A model generated the notes under the pieces. That model saw only the letters and a list, made by a program, of their open reading frames with translations, ran no database searches and was not told the origin of the DNA. A stretch of 27,816 nucleotides of DNA, from positions 1 through 27,816 of IMG/VR virus record IMGVR_UViG_3300001533_001179. One strand, written 5' to 3'. The DNA comes from a virus. Within the stretch, counting starts at the first letter, position 1; each line of letters begins with the position of its first letter. A program made the position numbers and the translations under genes. This document shows positions 3,777 to 22,903 of the stretch, piece after piece.

Positions 3777-3980
3777 GGTATCTGGGACTGGTATCTGGGA
3801 CTGGTATCCGGGACCGAGTATCGGGGTTTGGTATCCGGGACCGAGTATCGGGGTTTGGTATCTGGGACTGGTATCCGGGACCGAGTATCGGGGTTTGGTA
3901 TCTGGGACTGGTATCTGGGACTGGTATCCGGGACTGGTATCTGGGACTGGTATCCGGGACTGGTATCTGGGACTGGTATC
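3777..3980. repeat. 13-bp tandem repeat array (iteron-like)
   Basis: Twelve copies of a 13-bp unit, GGTATCTGGGACT or its variant GGTATCCGGGACT/C, are mostly head to tail. Three are followed by a 14-bp variant GAGTATCGGGGTTT (3816-3829, 3843-3856, 3883-3896). The last partial unit ends at 3980. The array is much richer in G than its surroundings and carries a GGG run every 13-14 bp. All three plus-strand frames stay open through it only because the unit lacks stop codons. The location in the divergent non-coding region, upstream of a strong promoter, suits an origin iteron, a centromere-like site or a G-quadruplex-prone element. Confidence 0.85.
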
Positions 3981-4177
3981 TTTTATTCAGGTTTGTTTAT
4001 CCGTTCTGGATTATTCCCTGTTCTGGATTGTTTGTTATATTGCCGTATGGTAACATATAGGACAATGTAATGACATAACCGTATTATATTGGTGTATTGG
4101 TATGGATTGATTTTTTTGCAGTGGTGCAAATTTGATTGAATGAATATCGGTCATATTCCGTTAACGTTTTTTAACAA

Positions 4178-6021: not shown

Positions 6022-6600
6022 ATGAAAAAGACTTTTATTAGATTTCAACATGGCAAAAATACACTCGGGCATCCCGAAGTATATTGCCAAGTAATTGAAA
6101 AGTTCCCTCCAACTATTGCATGGGACGTGATCGGAACTCTGACTTTTACAAAGTTCAGAGAGCAATTCACTTTCAATACTGCCGAAGTTCGCAGTGACAA
6201 GCACGAAAACTTCTTGAAAATGACTAAAATTGTCAAAACTTTGAATGAAAACACATTCTTTGATTCGGATATTATTGAGTGTTTGAATGTTCTCAACTAT
6301 GAAGAACAGATTATTTTCGGACAAGAACTTGTTGGTTTGTCCGATAACGGGAAGTTCATTTATAATCTTTTCGCAGATGAGAAAATGGAAAAGATTTATA
6401 CTCGGTTTGTAGCTACTAATGATTTTGAAGCTGCAAAGTTTGTGAGAAAACATTATCCGCAATACGAGGGTTTGTGGCAATCTTACAAAAGAATATCCGT
6501 TGAGTCAGTACTTTTCAACTCAGGGAATTATTCTTTATCAAAACTGGTACTCAATCACCCGTTCTTTGCTTCGATTGCACTTCGTATGAAATACGTTTAA
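6022..6600 (+). CDS. Hypothetical protein with a C-terminus captured from the VWA/metallopeptidase gene
   Basis: The 192-residue product starts at ATG 6022, just downstream of the hammerhead; the in-frame GTG at 5980 lies in ribozyme stem III and is rejected. The first about 170 residues (MKKTFIRFQHGKNTLGHPEV onward) are soluble and helical with no family I recognise. The last 18 residues (LVLNHPFFASIALRMKYV) are identical to residues 11-28 of the protein at 11745-12911, because the DNA at 6540-6597 exactly duplicates 11771-11828. The original C-terminus has therefore been replaced or extended by recombination. Whether the chimeric protein is functional is unclear. Confidence 0.65.
   Translation: MKKTFIRFQHGKNTLGHPEVYCQVIEKFPPTIAWDVIGTLTFTKFREQFTFNTAEVRSDKHENFLKMTKIVKTLNENTFFDSDIIECLNVLNYEEQIIFGQELVGLSDNGKFIYNLFADEKMEKIYTRFVATNDFEAAKFVRKHYPQYEGLWQSYKRISVESVLFNSGNYSLSKLVLNHPFFASIALRMKYV
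6540..6597 (+). repeat. 58-bp direct repeat, copy 1
   Basis: The sequence is identical to 11771-11828, in the same orientation and reading frame (LVLNHPFFASIALRMKYV). Here it forms the last codons of the gene at 6022-6600; at the other site it lies inside the start of the VWA/metallopeptidase gene. The direction of copying is inferred: the downstream gene is complete, so this is the derived copy. Confidence 0.95.
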
Positions 6601-9170: not shown

Positions 9171-9365
9171 ATGGGCAGAAGAAGGAAAAAAGCTGGGATG
9201 ACTCTTACCATTATAAGTGGAAGAATCGGGTACAAAGAAATCACAAGTTACTTGTACTCTGATAAAAGATACAACCACTATGTTTATAATGGCAGGAGAA
9301 GTTCCGGTGCTTTTCAAAAAGAAGATTTTGATGACGTATTTAGTATAGAAAATTTAACACTTTAA
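9171..9365 (+). CDS. Small basic hypothetical protein
   Basis: This 64-residue protein begins MGRRRKKAGMTLTIISGRIG. The N-terminus is strongly basic and the rest is rich in tyrosine and charged residues (KEITSYLYSDKRYNHYVYNG). A nucleic-acid-binding role is possible. No known family is recognised. Confidence 0.5.
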   Translation: MGRRRKKAGMTLTIISGRIGYKEITSYLYSDKRYNHYVYNGRRSSGAFQKEDFDDVFSIENLTL

Positions 9366-9380
9366 AAATTACTTATTATG
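9359..9380 (+). repeat. Recurrent translation-initiation leader
   Basis: The sequence TTAAAAATTACTTATTATGG, with ACT before it and AAAA after it, occurs identically at 9359-9385 and 9647-9673. It recurs one A shorter before the ATG at 10283. It takes in the start codon each time. Related shorter forms (AAATTTACTGTTATGG, AAATTTACGTTATGG) come before the genes at 12923 and 17419. The A/T-rich, SD-less motif appears to be the standard start signal of this phage. Confidence 0.7.
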
Positions 9381-9644
9381 GAAAAAGATGAATTTCAAAA
9401 GTTAAAAGACATTTGTCCCGGAACTTATGAACAAGTTAAAAATAAAGGATTTGTTTGTCCTCATTGCAGGCAAGTTTTTCAGGGAAAAGAGGTTGTACTT
9501 ACCATTAAAAACGATACACGACATGATGGAAGTCCTGAATTTAAAGCAGTGCAAGTCAATGGAAACATTTATCTATTAACTTGCCCTCATTGTAAATCAA
9601 CTGCTCTTCATGGATTTGGAGAAGCTTATGGATATTTTGATTAA
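9378..9644 (+). CDS. Zinc-ribbon protein
   Basis: This 88-residue protein contains two CPHC knuckles (FVCPHCRQVFQG at about residue 26 and LLTCPHCKSTALHG at about residue 68). They are separated by about 40 residues of beta-like sequence, the layout of a four-cysteine zinc ribbon. Such domains usually bind nucleic acid or act as protein interfaces. It is translated from the recurrent leader described for 9359-9380. The specific role is unknown. Confidence 0.7.
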   Translation: MEKDEFQKLKDICPGTYEQVKNKGFVCPHCRQVFQGKEVVLTIKNDTRHDGSPEFKAVQVNGNIYLLTCPHCKSTALHGFGEAYGYFD

Positions 9645-9665
9645 TAACTTTAAAAATTACTTATT

Positions 9666-10271
9666 ATGGAAAAGATCAATTTTAACGGGGCTTTCCCAAA
9701 CTTGTCAAGAGCTTACGAAATAGCAAAGTTTGGAAACTTCTCAATTACAGTATTTTATTCTGCTGACACTTTGGATTATCCAAAAGCAGATGAGGACTAC
9801 CAACTCCTTAAAGAGTTCTACAATGACGTAGAGTTCAAATCTGAAGGAAATATCTTTGTTCAGATAATCAAACCAAGAGATTATAAGTCTTTTGAGCATT
9901 GTGAAACTATTGAAGATATTCACAAAAGAGTTGAGAAAGCAAAAAGTAATCAAATTCCTATGAAGTATGATAACAACTCAGCTTGTTATGAACTTCTGAA
10001 AAATGCCACACAAAGATTGAATTTCTCATCTAAAGATGTTGAGATTATAGATAGGATGGCTTTGAAAATTGCACAACTCGATAGCACTAAAGAAATAGAA
10101 GCTCATCATATTGCAGAAGCAATCCAGTATAGGATAAAAGACAATTATCAATATCCTTTGATTACTGCGGAAGACAATACAATCGAGTTCGGGGACTCAA
10201 TTAAAATCAAGCGAGGAGATATTGAGTCTGAGTATGTTGAACAAGCTATTGATTACTTGAAAACACTTTAA
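9666..10271 (+). CDS. Protein with a Mg-chelatase/ComM-type C-terminal lid-like domain
   Basis: The product has 201 residues. Residues about 108-158 (LLKNATQRLNFSSKDVEIID, then ALKIAQLDSTKEIEAHHIAE and AIQYR) closely follow the helical lid of Mg-chelatase I subunits and ComM/YifB (pattern R-x-L-x-x-A-R-T-I-A-D-L-x-G-S-x-x-I-x-x-x-H-I-x-E-A-I-Q-Y-R). No Walker motif is present, so it is a free-standing lid with unrelated N-terminal (about 100 residues) and C-terminal (about 40 residues) extensions. A MoxR AAA ATPase and a VWA protein, the analogues of the chelatase I and D subunits, are encoded about 0.5-1.5 kb downstream, so it may be an accessory subunit of that machine (inference). Confidence 0.65.
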   Translation: MEKINFNGAFPNLSRAYEIAKFGNFSITVFYSADTLDYPKADEDYQLLKEFYNDVEFKSEGNIFVQIIKPRDYKSFEHCETIEDIHKRVEKAKSNQIPMKYDNNSACYELLKNATQRLNFSSKDVEIIDRMALKIAQLDSTKEIEAHHIAEAIQYRIKDNYQYPLITAEDNTIEFGDSIKIKRGDIESEYVEQAIDYLKTL

Positions 10272-10282
10272 AATTACTTATT

Positions 10283-10666
10283 ATGGAACTAAAAGATTTA
10301 GTAGGAAAACACTTATTATCAGGAGTTGATATTACTTCTGAAAAGGGCAATGATCTTTGGGATGAAACTTGTGATGTAGTTCGGTTTGTTATAGATGGAA
10401 TTACTTATAAAGCTATTGAAGATCCAGAAGACGGGTATAGATCATACATAAAAGAACTAAGTATTACCAAAGAAAAGGTAAGCAACACATTCCCTCCTCA
10501 AAAAGTTATAGGAGTAATGAAAGAAGAAAGTGATTGTGATACTATTCAATTCTTTGATAGTAAGACGAAAAACATAGTATTGGAAGTAGGTACAGAAGAT
10601 ACAAATACATACTATCCAATGTGTATCATGAGATGGCATCCTGAGAATCTTGCCATAAACAATTAA
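10283..10666 (+). CDS. Hypothetical protein
   Basis: This 127-residue acidic protein (start MELKDLVGKHLLSGVDITSE) has alternating beta-like segments (VVRFVIDGITYKAIEDPEDG) and no cysteine cluster or membrane helix. It is translated from the third copy of the recurrent leader and lies in the operon between the chelatase-lid protein and the MoxR gene. Its family is not recognised. Confidence 0.6.
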   Translation: MELKDLVGKHLLSGVDITSEKGNDLWDETCDVVRFVIDGITYKAIEDPEDGYRSYIKELSITKEKVSNTFPPQKVIGVMKEESDCDTIQFFDSKTKNIVLEVGTEDTNTYYPMCIMRWHPENLAINN

Positions 10667-11748: not shown

Positions 11749-12911
11749 GCACACTAAAGAAAGCAAAATTAAAACTGGTACTCAATCACCCGTTCTTTGC
11801 TTCGATTGCACTTCGTATGAAATACGTTGAGGACGAGTCTGTGGGAACTATGTCTATTGGCAAAGATACCATAAAGTACAGTCCTGACTTCGTGAACAAG
11901 TTGAGCACTGATCAGTGTGTAGGGTTACTTGCACATGAAGTACTTCACTACACGTTATGTCATCACACAAGGATGGGTGATCGTGAGTTCAAAGATTGGA
12001 ATAAAGCGTGTGACTACGCTGTAAATTCCATTCTTTTGAAGTCTAAATTCTATTTGCCTGAAGGATATTTGTACAATCCTGACTTCGCAGAGAAAGCTGC
12101 GGAAGATATTTACAAAGCAATTCACCAAGAACCTGAAAAAGGTGATCAGGGTGACCAAAGTGAAAACGAAAGTGGGGATGATCAGGGTGACCAAAGTGAT
12201 CAAAGTAATCAGGGGGATGGGAAAAATGACTCCGGTGATGAAAATTCACCTGAAAACTGGGGAAAAGTTGAATCCGTTTCACAGGAAGAAACACAACAGG
12301 CAGAAGCAGAAGCAAAACAGGCTGCTGTGGAAGCTATAAATGTTGCCAAGCAAGCCGGAAGTATGCCCGGTGGTTTGGAAGAAATCATTTCTGAACTTAT
12401 TGAACCCAAAAAGAATTGGCAGGAGTTACTTCAAAAGTTTGCTGCTGAATTAGCTAAAAATGATTACAGTTGGAGTAAACCGAATAACAGGTACTTACCT
12501 TCCGGTTTATATCTTCCTAAACTTGAATCATTGGAAATTGGCAAGTTTGCATTTGTTATTGATACAAGTGGTTCAGTAAATAAACCAGCATTGATTATAT
12601 TCTTTTCTGAGTTAAAAGAAATTGCTTTAACATTCAACTTTTCAGTAACTGTGTTGTATTGTCATACAAACGTATGGAAAGTTGAAGAGTTTACTGATGA
12701 CTATGAAATTCCTCCATTAGAACGTGGCGGAACTTCATTTAAACCCGCCTTTGACTATGTTAATGATGAGATGCCCGATACTAAGGCATTGGTGTACTTT
12801 ACAGATGGTGAATGTTACGAAAAGTTACAGGAACCTGAATATGAAACTCTTTGGGTTATTTATGACAACAAAAGGTTTAAACCGCAATTTGGACAAGTTA
12901 TTTATATTTAA
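11745..12911 (+). CDS. VWA-like protein with an N-terminal metallopeptidase-like domain (DUF2201 type)
   Basis: This 388-residue partner of the MoxR ATPase has three parts. Residues about 12-130 are a metallopeptidase-like domain with HEVLH at 64-68 and a further HH at 73-74. Residues about 130-175 are a Gly/Asp/Gln/Ser-rich linker with an exact 20-nt repeat at 12144-12163 and 12180-12199. Residues about 255-388 are a VWA-like domain with the MIDAS motif DTSGS at 273-277 and a later YFTDGE. The start is a TTG at 11745 overlapping the MoxR stop (TTGA); the next in-frame ATG would delete the conserved N-terminus. The first 28 codons include the 58-bp repeat shared with 6540-6597. Confidence 0.85.
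   Translation: MSTLKKAKLKLVLNHPFFASIALRMKYVEDESVGTMSIGKDTIKYSPDFVNKLSTDQCVGLLAHEVLHYTLCHHTRMGDREFKDWNKACDYAVNSILLKSKFYLPEGYLYNPDFAEKAAEDIYKAIHQEPEKGDQGDQSENESGDDQGDQSDQSNQGDGKNDSGDENSPENWGKVESVSQEETQQAEAEAKQAAVEAINVAKQAGSMPGGLEEIISELIEPKKNWQELLQKFAAELAKNDYSWSKPNNRYLPSGLYLPKLESLEIGKFAFVIDTSGSVNKPALIIFFSELKEIALTFNFSVTVLYCHTNVWKVEEFTDDYEIPPLERGGTSFKPAFDYVNDEMPDTKALVYFTDGECYEKLQEPEYETLWVIYDNKRFKPQFGQVIYI
11771..11828 (+). repeat. 58-bp direct repeat, copy 2 (likely the source copy)
   Basis: Identical to 6540-6597. Here it encodes residues 9/10 to 28 of an intact VWA/metallopeptidase protein, in the family's usual N-terminal HPFF sequence, so this is probably the parental copy. Confidence 0.95.
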
Positions 12912-19207: not shown

Positions 19208-19768
19208 ATGCGAACAAAACAAAACTGGGAGCAGAACTGGGAGAAAAAAGCAATAGAGAAATATTTCACCCCACGAATAACTAAAGATTTACTCACACTA
19301 AACTTTCCACAGTTACCCGATGAGCAACCAAACAGCACTTTTATTTGCGGGAAAATCAAAACCGGCAAGACCATTCACGCAGCATGCTTAGCACTCCAGC
19401 AGGTAAAGTACGATTACCTGAATGAACTGCCGGTTAATTTACTGTTTGTTTCATTCCCGGAAATGCTGGCAGAAATCAAAGACACTTACAACAACAAGGG
19501 CAAAACCGAAAGCGAGGTAATGAAAAAGTACCTTGACGTGCCGTTTCTTGTTATTGACGACTTTCTCACTACCCGTCCGACTGATTGGGTGATGGATGTG
19601 CTTTACTACCTGATTAATCATAGGTACGAGTACTTGCTGACCACAGTGATTACGAGTAATTATACACTCGAGGAGTTGGAGGAGTTGTTAAATGACCAAA
19701 GAATCACAAGTCGGATTGACCGGATGTGTGAGGTCGTAGAAAAAACAGGATTCAAAAATGCCGTGTAA
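19208..19768 (+). CDS. DnaC/IstB-like AAA+ ATPase, helicase loader
   Basis: Loaders place the replicative helicase onto DNA. This 186-residue protein has Walker A CGKIKTGKT (about 47-55), Walker B LVIDDF (about 113-118) and the sensor TSNYTLEEL. The second half ends soon after the arginine-containing helix (RITSRIDRM). It is shorter than bacterial DnaC (about 245 residues), lacking a long N-terminal helicase-binding domain, as is common in phages. The DnaB-like helicase gene follows about 120 nt later. Confidence 0.8.
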   Translation: MRTKQNWEQNWEKKAIEKYFTPRITKDLLTLNFPQLPDEQPNSTFICGKIKTGKTIHAACLALQQVKYDYLNELPVNLLFVSFPEMLAEIKDTYNNKGKTESEVMKKYLDVPFLVIDDFLTTRPTDWVMDVLYYLINHRYEYLLTTVITSNYTLEELEELLNDQRITSRIDRMCEVVEKTGFKNAV

Positions 19769-19886
19769 ATATTTCAGTTTAAAATCGTTTTTAAGGCTAT
19801 TTTCGGTCGATTACAGGACGTTTTATATGGTGTGTGGTATATTGTATTATTTTAGGGGTAAAATCGTTTAAAACGGAAATTTTAGG

Positions 19887-21416
19887 ATGATCGAAAGAAA
19901 AGTATTGATAGGACTTATAACAAGTACAAATTACTTGCAACAACTCAATTCGGAGTGGAAACCGGAATACTTGGAAAGTCCTACGGCAAGACTTCTGTCC
20001 GGTTGGTGTTGGGAATACTTTGACAAGTATCACAAAGCACCGATGAGGGACATTGAAGGGATTTACATTGAAAAACTGAAAAAAGGAATTAATGAGGAAC
20101 TTGCCAATGAAATAGAAAGTGAGATACTCCCTGAACTGAGTGAGCAGTATGAAAATGAAAATCCTGACATTGAATATTTACTTGACCAGACAAGGGCTTA
20201 CTTAAAGGAAAGACAAATTGCCATACACGTTGAAACGGTTGGTGGATTGATTGAAAAAGGGGATGTTCAGCAAGCACAAAATGAAATTGAAAAGTTCAAT
20301 ATTGTAGAAGGCGGGAAAGTTGAAGGACTTGATTTGAGTAGTCCTGAGATGCTTGAAAAAATAGATGTTGTATTTGATACAACTTATCAAAATGTGATAA
20401 AGTTTCCCGGAGCTTTGGGTGATTTTTGGAATGATCAGCTTGTCAGGGGAGGGTTTGTATCACTTATGTCTCCTGACAAACGTGGAAAAACTTACATGCT
20501 ATTGGAATTTATGATGAGAGCATATAAGCAAAAACGCAAAGTTGCATTTTTTCAGGCAGGGGACATGACAGAGAACCAGCAATTAGCTCGTATCTGTATT
20601 TATCTTGCCAAAAAATCAAATCTGGAAAAGTATTGTGGAACTCTTTACGTTCCTGAACAGGACTGCATAAAAAACCAGTTGGATATGTGTAGCAAAAAAG
20701 TCAGGGAATGTAAGTTTGGTGTATTCGAGGACAAGTCTGATCGAAAAGATATTACCAAGCAGGATTTAATTGAAGCGTTGAAAGATTACCCGGATTACAA
20801 ACCCTGTTACAACTGTGTGGAGTGGCAAAAGAACAAGTGGGGAAGTGTATGGCTTAAAAAAATAGAAGTAAAAAATCCTTTAAGTAAAAGGGAAGCTAAA
20901 AAGTGGATTAAAAAGTTTTTCATAGACACTAAACGGAGCATTAAAATGACTACATATTCTAATGATACTTTGACTTTATCTGAAATGAAAAGGGTTTTGC
21001 AAAAATGGAAACGTGAGGAGAATTTTGTACCGGATGTTGTGATAATAGATTATGCTGATTTGTTAGTGGCTGAAAAAGAAAGAGAACATAGGCACAAGGA
21101 AAATGAAATTTGGAAAGGACTTAGGGGGCTGTCACAAGAACTTGATGCTTTGGTTATTACAGCTACTCAGACTGATTCGGATAGTTACAGTAAAGACAGG
21201 TTGGAGATGAGAAACTTTAGTGAGGATAAAAGAAAACTTGCACACGTGACAGCAATGTATGGATTAAATCAGGATTCAAAGGGCAGGGAAAAAGAAATAG
21301 GTGTACTTAGAATAAATAAAATTGTTGTGCGTGAAGGTGATTTTCACAGTTCACAGGAAGTAAATGTGTTGCAGAGATTAGAGATCGGAAGACCATTTTT
21401 AGGGAGTTATTATTAG
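19887..21416 (+). CDS. DnaB-like replicative helicase with a cysteine-rich insertion
   Basis: The product has 509 residues. The C-terminal RecA fold has Walker A SPDKRGKT (about 195-202), FFQAGDMTENQ (about 221-231), Walker B VVIIDYAD (about 384-391), and the later ITATQTDSDSY segment. The N-terminal part (about 1-150) is a helical domain. Between Walker A and B, about 60 residues (about 250-310) carry six cysteines (C250, C260, C268, C275, C307, C310) in a pattern able to bind zinc, which ordinary DnaB lacks. Similar inserts occur in some phage helicases. It follows the loader gene, and a short SD-led gene follows. Confidence 0.82.
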   Translation: MIERKVLIGLITSTNYLQQLNSEWKPEYLESPTARLLSGWCWEYFDKYHKAPMRDIEGIYIEKLKKGINEELANEIESEILPELSEQYENENPDIEYLLDQTRAYLKERQIAIHVETVGGLIEKGDVQQAQNEIEKFNIVEGGKVEGLDLSSPEMLEKIDVVFDTTYQNVIKFPGALGDFWNDQLVRGGFVSLMSPDKRGKTYMLLEFMMRAYKQKRKVAFFQAGDMTENQQLARICIYLAKKSNLEKYCGTLYVPEQDCIKNQLDMCSKKVRECKFGVFEDKSDRKDITKQDLIEALKDYPDYKPCYNCVEWQKNKWGSVWLKKIEVKNPLSKREAKKWIKKFFIDTKRSIKMTTYSNDTLTLSEMKRVLQKWKREENFVPDVVIIDYADLLVAEKEREHRHKENEIWKGLRGLSQELDALVITATQTDSDSYSKDRLEMRNFSEDKRKLAHVTAMYGLNQDSKGREKEIGVLRINKIVVREGDFHSSQEVNVLQRLEIGRPFLGSYY

Positions 21417-21641: not shown

Positions 21642-21673
21642 TTTGGTAAATTCAATTTTTTGTGGTATATTTG
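21642..21673 (+). promoter_or_regulatory. Bacteroidota-type promoter of the RNA gene unit
   Basis: TTTG (21642-21645), a 20-nt spacer and TATATTTG (21666-21673) are a perfect consensus match. Transcription would begin near 21679, about 55 nt before the conserved tmRNA 3' region. Confidence 0.85.
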
Positions 21674-21803
21674 ATTTTGAATTTATAAAATCAGTTCATT
21701 GAAAATATTGAATTTCGTTGAAGTTATTTGAAACTGTTTGGACACGGGTTCGATTCCCGTCTGCTCCACACCACGTAGCAAGCGTGTTTTCGTCAATTAA
21801 TCA

Positions 21804-21833
21804 GGAGGGAAACAAGTAGTGTGTTGTCCCTCC
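21804..21833 (+). other. Hairpin in the segment between the two tmRNA halves
   Basis: GGAGGGA (21804-21810) pairs with TCCCTCC (21827-21833), with a further CAA/TTG pair inside. It sits in the spacer that would be removed when a permuted tmRNA precursor matures into two pieces, and may guide processing. Confidence 0.55.
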
Positions 21834-21897
21834 ACATTTGGGGCAGATTGGCTTAGACAGGCAGAGGTAGGGTAATGGAGAGATTCAGGTGATAACA

Positions 21898-21945
21898 GGC
21901 AAAACTGTTAATCTTTTCAATGCTCCTGTGAGACAGGCAGCATAG
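21898..21945 (+). other. tmRNA tag reading frame (GKTVNLFNAPVRQAA, stop TAG)
   Basis: Starting at GGC, the frame encodes a 15-residue peptide ending in AA before TAG. Bacteroidota tmRNA tags start with glycine, and almost all tags end in two small residues (typically AA) for ClpXP recognition. The end of the frame lies in a hairpin (TGCT-CCTG with CAGG-AGCA, 21921-21942), the position of helix P5. There is no start codon or ribosome-binding site, as expected for a tag. The last residues (VRQAA rather than ALAA) are atypical. Confidence 0.65.
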
Positions 21946-21975
21946 AAACGTCTGCCCCACGAGACGGGGCAATTT

Positions 21976-22124
21976 GGCAAGGTGGCGGAATTGGTAGACG
22001 CTGTAGGAAGAAGGCGTGAATCCTTTAAGTGAACTCCGATAGTAAGGAAGTTCTGCCTATAATAGACGATAAGTAAGTGTACATAGCTGACAATATAATG
22101 CAGGTTCGACTCCTGCCCTTGCCA
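21976..22124 (+). ncRNA. tRNA-Leu-like RNA with an insertion of about 60 nt
   Basis: The acceptor stem is GGCAAGG (21976-21982) with CCTTGCC (22117-22123) and discriminator A22124. The D-arm TGGCGGAATTGGTAGACGC (21983-22001) is characteristic of tRNA-Leu, and the T-arm GCAGG-TTCGACT-CCTGC (22100-22116) is canonical. The region between is about 98 nt, where a normal leucine tRNA has about 35. GTAGG (22003-22007) can pair with CCTAT (22056-22060) as an anticodon stem, leaving a 48-nt loop holding two hairpins (AAGG/CCTT and GAACTCC with GGA-GTTC). No conventional anticodon loop with U33 is found and no CCA is encoded. It may be a tRNA with an intron-like insert, a tRNA-derived RNA, or a decayed gene. 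Confidence 0.65.
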
Positions 22125-22171: not shown

Positions 22172-22196
22172 TGCCCGGAGAGACGGGCACTTTTTT
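22172..22196 (+). terminator. Intrinsic terminator of the RNA gene unit
   Basis: TGCCCG (22172-22177) and CGGGCA (22184-22189) form a stem with loop GAGAGA, followed by C and six T residues. It closes the unit that starts at the promoter 21642-21673. Confidence 0.85.
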
Positions 22197-22219: not shown

Positions 22220-22903
22220 ATGGCAAAAGAATTATTACAAGGGCAGTTGATTGATGCCTACAATGAACTCGACAAGATTGCAGGGATTAATCCCCCTGTT
22301 AAGTGGAAAACCCAAGATCAGTTTGAAAGGGAATTATGGAGCTGTGTTTATGGTGGCACGGATCAGAAAGTAGCTGAAGAAGGTGATAAGTTTACAGAAG
22401 AAGCTCAGGCTGTGTTTGATGAATTAGGTAGGAAATATGGCAAAGGATTTGAATTGTATGATCCTGATGATGTGCCGAATGTAATTGAACCTAAAGAACC
22501 TGAATCTGAAGAATCCGATCCTGAACCCGAACCGGAGGAAAAACCCGCACCAAAACCAAAATCCAAAGCCAAACCAAAAGCAAGTTCAAAGAAACAACCT
22601 GCTAAAAAAGTTGAAAAAGAACCCGAATCTGAGCCGGAGGAAAAACCTGCACCAAAACCCAAAGCTGAAAAGAAAGTTGAAGTGGACATGGAAAATGTTC
22701 AGATCACAGACAGGGTTGATGCTTTATGTATGGCACTTGAAATGAACCCGGATTCGATTGATGACTGGTCACGTAGGGCTAATTCAATCCTTGAAATAAA
22801 AGGTGGGAAAATCAAACCGAATAACCTTGCAAACAAGTTTGACATCGGGTATTTTTACAAGATTGCAAAACATTTTGATTTGGGTGAATTACCCAAGTCG
22901 TAG
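22220..22903 (+). CDS. Protein with a Pro/Lys/Glu-rich linker and two folded ends
   Basis: This 227-residue protein begins MAKELLQGQLIDAYNELDKI. Residues about 1-90 are a helical, acidic domain. Residues about 93-155 are a low-complexity linker with repeats of EEKPAPKPK and EPESEPEE. Residues about 158-227 are a second helical domain (RVDALCMALEMNPDSIDDWS) that could be a small DNA- or protein-binding unit. Flexible EKP linkers usually tether two binding modules. It has its own terminator directly after it. No family is recognised. Confidence 0.6.
   Translation: MAKELLQGQLIDAYNELDKIAGINPPVKWKTQDQFERELWSCVYGGTDQKVAEEGDKFTEEAQAVFDELGRKYGKGFELYDPDDVPNVIEPKEPESEESDPEPEPEEKPAPKPKSKAKPKASSKKQPAKKVEKEPESEPEEKPAPKPKAEKKVEVDMENVQITDRVDALCMALEMNPDSIDDWSRRANSILEIKGGKIKPNNLANKFDIGYFYKIAKHFDLGELPKS

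Follow-up and report, generated by a model that had tools for sequence, protein, structure and literature searches.

Permuted tmRNA is known from three described bacterial lineages, and a merged model has been built from those three (PMC11915505). Two-piece tmRNAs have also been published in marine phages, namely the OM43 phage Melnitz and its relatives, and the Melnitz tmRNA, which is accompanied by a glutamine riboswitch, was assigned by its authors to the alphaproteobacterial lineage (PMC9004378). In addition, we found that the annotated tmRNA of the Crassvirales phage cr50_1 (MT774375) is permuted (RF04321, 60.3 bits; ARAGORN call tmRNA*), and many more permuted genes are present in IMG/VR. 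Because of these three groups of examples, the premise of a first-pass annotation of the DNA analysed here, that such a gene in a phage had no precedent, was too strong. In the openly accessible literature that we searched, no permuted lineage in Bacteroidota phages is described. We report here a phage gene which, judging from sequence comparisons, very probably encodes a functional two-piece tmRNA of circularly permuted type and belongs to a lineage carried by Bacteroidota phages and prophages.

The gene lies at 21734-21945 on the plus strand of the window, by which we mean the whole 27,816-nucleotide stretch that was analysed, taken from a virus record in IMG/VR whose full length is 40,369 bases. 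The non-coding stretch holding it is flanked by a DnaB-like helicase gene (19887-21416) with a small ORF on one side and by a gene at 22220 on the other. When the whole window was scanned with all Rfam families, the sole match was RF04321 (tmRNA_permuted), with a score of 55.9 bits (E = 1.5e-8) at a curated cut-off of 47 bits, and ARAGORN independently called a permuted tmRNA (tmRNA*) with the tag GKTVNLFNAPVRQAA*. The ordinary tmRNA model (RF00023) scored the gene at 19.9 bits, below its cut-off of 47, and beta_tmRNA (RF01850) at 44.4 bits, below its cut-off of 84, while neither alpha_tmRNA (RF01849) nor cyano_tmRNA (RF01851) appeared at or above its cut-off among the best Rfam matches reported for the window. 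The claim that a phage carries a circularly permuted tmRNA is upheld by both programs and, among the permuted models, by RF04321.

The order of the gene is the one which the first-pass annotation had read: the 3' tRNA-like half, with GGACACGGGTTCGATTCCCGTCTGCTCCAC at 21740-21769, stands upstream of the 5' half, which opens with GGGGCAG at 21840-21846, and both halves form one acceptor stem. The acceptor (tRNA-like) piece (21734-21769, plus strand), delimited by the RF04321 alignment and a pairing test, begins with the 3' strand of P2, CTGTTTG (21734-21740), whose last G doubles as the first G of GGAC. It continues, in the same alignment, with the T-stem ACGGG/CCCGT (21744-21748 and 21756-21760) and its T-loop and with the acceptor 3' strand CTGCTCC (21761-21767), followed by the A discriminator; CCA is not encoded at the acceptor end. 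An intervening sequence of 70 nt (21770-21839, plus strand) comes next, which is expected to be excised; its fold shows two hairpins (21772-21786 and about 21804-21833), and spacers in the family measure 50-145 nt. The coding (mRNA-like) piece (21840-21945, plus strand; Rfam alignment and ARAGORN) consists of the acceptor 5' strand, the D-loop ATTGGCTTAGACAGG, the 5' strand of P2, CAGGCAG (21858-21864), and, as had been claimed, a tag frame downstream (21898-21945, plus strand), which starts with the resume codon GGC, ends in VRQAA and is closed by the stop TAG, as read by ARAGORN and by codon comparison with relatives. The acceptor strands GGGGCAG and CTGCTCC pair at all seven positions across the spacer, just as previously noted, and the G3-U70 pair and the A discriminator are the identity elements for alanine. 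The two P2 strands pair at 7/7 positions, G-U allowed.

One further pairing was seen in this region. GGGGCAGAT (21840-21848) can pair with GTCTGCCCC (21950-21958), just past the tag, rivalling the acceptor stem. Co-folding of the window RNA still favoured the two-piece form, and a competitor resembling GTCTGCCCC was found in the window only, with no counterpart discernible by eye in the related phage L007. It is possible that this pairing with the 5' acceptor strand is regulatory, or that it is accidental.

A generic permuted-tmRNA pattern matched at least 119 stretches in IMG/VR, and most of the matches listed resemble known types with AND... tags. A second set of about 25 sequences from viral contigs, the window included, is marked by non-AND tags and by a D-loop in which GAC is preceded by T; it was picked by eye from tags and sequence, and these traits are thus not independent evidence. 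Further members score above the RF04321 cut-off (L086, 69.3 bits; L109, 62.8; L128, 61.6; L025, 61.4). In 22 non-redundant members, P2 strands paired with their own partners at a mean of -4.9 kcal/mol vs -2.1 kcal/mol with swapped partners (p = 5e-5, 20,000 permutations), and P2 had played no part in choosing the members. The acceptor stem takes 8 different sequences in these members and forms 154 of 154 pairs, always keeping G3-U70 and the A discriminator, although this count is partly circular, as six of the seven pairs were demanded at selection. Pairing of both the acceptor and P2 is thus kept and covaries among the 22 members, as the comparison with related phages proposed in the first-pass annotation was meant to establish. 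These data also bear on the idea that two fragments of tRNA genes were joined by chance and make no tmRNA, for which one may point to the T-arm/acceptor part, which alone resembles many tRNA genes, and to short BLAST matches, which are tRNAs and tmRNAs. A chance combination is refuted by the comparative data and has a negligible probability in our estimation, given the E-value of the full permuted model (1.5e-8), a homologue at the same site in L007 and the preference of P2 strands for their own partners (p = 5e-5). None of the outcomes named beforehand as damaging to the tmRNA reading (no permuted match, unconserved pairing, a conventional RNA explaining each half) occurred.

The family is not confined to viral contigs. 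A scan of 84,980 prokaryote species with a related pattern yielded a single genome, that of Sphingobacterium alimentarium (Bacteroidota), and of the 395 Bacteroidota genomes in a sample, two scored above the RF04321 cut-off, S. alimentarium and G235, the latter with 63.1 bits and the tag GKVIQMNNAPVRLAA. Both copies are surrounded by phage genes (DnaB, terminase, portal and tape measure at one; DnaB, polymerase and exonuclease at the other), an arrangement of prophage type. Both genomes also hold a one-piece tmRNA, with the tags GEENYALAA and GEDNYALAA, and the two forms thus coexist there; a one-piece tmRNA is present in 40 of 41 Bacteroidota genomes. Two pattern matches were not retained. 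The one in G031/L150, beside a standard tmRNA of a Bacteroidota genome, was dropped, as its GGGG lacks a matching D-loop and the one-piece tmRNA explains it. The one in G941 was not counted, as its spacer begins with a hairpin resembling a terminator, which is what would follow an ordinary gene. Some members show peculiarities of their own. A cluster of tRNA-like genes, whose anticodon arms are in some cases shortened or abnormal, adjoins the permuted tmRNA of a Sphingobacterium prophage (L128, 6301-6865 and upstream). The spacers of the permuted tmRNAs in L089 and L112 are long (130-138 nt), and a stretch conserved between them, GGGGTAGCCTAA-AAAGAATGACAAAA, resembles a tmRNA 5' piece.

The tags of this family differ from those of the hosts. 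Host tags mostly end in YALAA or YAMAA, with a few in RLAA or RMAA, and the window tag, ending in VRQAA, is not of the host type GE(E/D)NYALAA or any form ending in ALAA. At position -4, all 19 phage tags compared, a set which leaves out the GEHVEMAMAA-type group, carry a basic residue (Arg in 13, Lys in 6). In a comparison of the window with L086, the nine final codons (NAPVRQAA*) showed four base differences, all of them synonymous. In the 13 long-tag members, the last codons fold into a hairpin with a three-base NAG loop; in the window it is ATGCTCCTGT-GAG-ACAGGCAGCAT (21920-21943, plus strand), identified by folds and by covariation in the long-tag subgroup, with 10 of 10 pairs. Over the 13 members 101 of 130 pairs form, whereas 2000 synonymous recodings of the tag end averaged 77.6 pairs and never exceeded 90; in the members themselves, several pair types occur at the inner positions. 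The hairpin was, however, defined on the window and its nearest relatives, and these show the most pairs. In L011, no tag-end hairpin beyond chance was seen. The tag end of a one-piece tmRNA lies in a helix (P5), and by analogy the phage hairpin may be its counterpart. Selection on the peptide alone, as a reason for Arg at -4, is weakened by the fact that its codon, invariably AGA or AGG, lies inside the hairpin loop; therefore, RNA structure, the peptide or both together might be what maintains this residue.

It is plausible to ask whether the RNA could act merely as a decoy or inhibitor, binding SmpB or stalled ribosomes and so blocking trans-translation by the host. A tmRNA of phage DS6A, reduced to the tRNA-like domain, is reported to inhibit tmRNA (PMC4131195, PMC11915505), and the host already owns a tmRNA. 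A pure decoy would need no tag, however, and here the tag frame, the resume region and the stop are all retained, tag ends are conserved as amino acids through synonymous changes, and so is the tag-end hairpin. We therefore consider a decoy improbable and favour a tmRNA which would tag proteins. The proposal that the phage tag could redirect host rescue fits with tags unlike host ones.

As for transcription, a promoter of Bacteroidota type, TTTG-N20-TATATTTG (-33/-7), was located by a pattern scan, and also by a sigma-70-like scan, at 21642-21673 (plus strand). The first-pass annotation had called it perfect, and it does fit the Bacteroidota consensus. By chance, nevertheless, 27.8 kb should contain about two occurrences of a looser TTG form on each strand, and the window has about as many as that, so that the motif alone is modest evidence. 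We thus counted it at the level of the family only: TAnnTTTG occurs within 110 bases upstream in 6 of 21 family members vs 1.2 expected, and upstream of other viral permuted tmRNAs in 3 of 78 vs 4.3 expected. The terminator that had been placed at 21949-21971 did not hold up, as this is a G+C hairpin with just three T after it and no T-run. An intrinsic terminator found by a terminator scan at 22172-22195 (plus strand) is the likely end of the transcript of the tmRNA and the tRNA-like element (the scan found 5 terminator-like sites vs 0.4 expected), and therefore the tRNA-like element at 21976-22124 is probably co-transcribed with the tmRNA. This element has a perfect 7-bp acceptor, a Leu-like D-arm and a perfect T-arm, with an insert of 65-72 nt in the anticodon region, which is less than the usual length of a group I intron; ARAGORN calls it solely with introns allowed, and its anticodon is ambiguous.

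The window phage is sparsely represented in databases. An exact search of IMG/VR for its T-arm/acceptor string gave no match, nor did a nucleotide search of the tmRNA region against named phages at the default threshold. Its relative L007, with a polymerase 52% identical, carries a permuted tmRNA (65.1 bits with RF04321, tag GKTQKMAA) at the same site, after the same helicase and beyond an inserted methyltransferase gene. The relatives L129 and L005 have no permuted tmRNA at the corresponding site, and the gene is thus dispensable cargo that comes and goes. A more distant relative, L130, has a one-piece tmRNA instead (19635-19963, tag ATPMKMAA); with the one-piece gene of the Cellulophaga phage Calle, this means that related phages or phages of the same phylum carry either form. 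One could suppose that the gene is decayed and simply travels with phage tRNAs, since it is missing from some close relatives and the neighbouring tRNA-like element looks abnormal. Yet all helices are intact in the window copy, including the complete tag hairpin, and RF04321 scores it above the cut-off, which makes decay very unlikely and a functional gene the preferred reading.

Elsewhere in the window, a direct repeat of 61 nt (98% identity; 6537-6597 and 11768-11828), in which the beginning of a vWA/HNH-type gene recurs at the end of one ORF, suggests recombination or mis-assembly. A tandem 13-nt unit (GGTATCTGGGACT) is present in about 15 copies at 3777-3981, apparently an intergenic region. 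The leader ACTTTAAAAATTACTTATTATGGAA, repeated at 9352-9385, 9640-9673 and 10257-10290, contains an ATG at which at least two genes start, and it is possibly a shared promoter or translation signal.

The phage probably infects Bacteroidota. The nearest relatives of its terminase are those of Croceibacter and Cellulophaga phages, and its tag is nearly identical to a tag encoded in a prophage-like part of the Bacteroidota genome G235. Together with the TAnnTTTG box of the family, this speaks for the earlier assignment to a Bacteroidota phage, but the terminase alone was informative among the proteins: the polymerase, helicases, RecA and vWA/HNH protein pointed to mixed hosts and gave no phylum signal.

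How such an RNA might work can be outlined as follows. Transcription from the host-type promoter would start near 21680 and cover first the tRNA-like half, then the spacer and finally the coding half. Host RNase P would cut just before G21840, 3' processing together with CCA addition would complete the acceptor end (21768), and the spacer would be lost, the two pieces being held together by the acceptor stem and P2. As no SmpB gene was found in the 40-kb phage record, which may be incomplete, host SmpB, along with host alanyl-tRNA synthetase acting via G3-U70, would be expected to deliver the tmRNA to stalled ribosomes. These would resume at GGC 21898, adding Ala and GKTVNLFNAPVRQAA. The likely benefit in infection, which we infer along with the fate of the tagged proteins, would be that ribosomes are kept free and unfinished proteins are marked with a tag chosen by the phage.

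The two origins that the first-pass annotation had considered, a separate one or a transferred gene, were approached with a tree of the tRNA-like part, which, at 71 columns and 117 rows, is too short to separate them. The tree tests rejected three constraints to about the same degree (p-AU 0.037-0.040): all permuted genes kept in one group, the family grouped with core Bacteroidota one-piece genes, and the family kept as a group by itself. The D-loop, GTTTGGAC and the GGC resume codon match those of some Bacteroidota one-piece tmRNAs, which hints at an independent permutation. A more ambitious scenario, a fourth lineage independently permuted from a Bacteroidota one-piece tmRNA, with a distinct tag constrained by RNA structure and partly overriding the host system in infection, might be entertained as a tentative and rather doubtful proposal.

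The permuted form thus circulates, by way of phages and prophages, in a phylum for which it is not known, while the hosts keep one-piece genes. A cell that has two tmRNAs whose tags differ offers a natural experiment, and, if the phage RNA is active, a tag chosen by the phage confronts the protease and rescue machinery of the host.

Compared with the known systems, the gene shares with the RF04321 tmRNAs of Caulobacter, Betaproteobacteria and Cyanobacteria the order of 3' half, spacer and 5' half, the acceptor pairing with G3-U70, P2, the T-arm and the tag frame; the D-loop of the family is, however, usually TTTTGAC rather than TTTCGAC, and the tags are not of the AND... type. The Melnitz tmRNA is likewise phage-encoded and permuted, whereas the window gene has a promoter of Bacteroidota type and a different tag family. 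Crassvirales phages infect Bacteroidales, and the tmRNA of cr50_1 resembles that of the window in its permuted form, with a tag starting in GN, but has a much longer spacer with tRNA-like sequence and a tag, GNNFVTDYTAIGA, without a basic residue at -4; a RAGATH-22 RNA (155.6 bits) was noticed in cr50_1 (L182, 869-1035) a few hundred bases upstream of it. Calle (MT732433; L181, 1521-1882) also carries a tmRNA, in a cultured Bacteroidota phage, though in ordinary gene order and in one piece (RF00023, 86.6 bits). The tmRNAs of Bacteroidota hosts (Sphingobacterium, G235) are like the window gene in their D-loop, TTTTGACAG or AATTGACAG, in GTTTGGAC before the T-arm and in a GGC resume codon after AACT or AAAT, and differ from it in being one piece, in having pseudoknots and in the tag GE(E/D)NYALAA. 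Permuted tmRNA and phage copies of it were already known; the lineage, its tag and the tag-end hairpin are new here.
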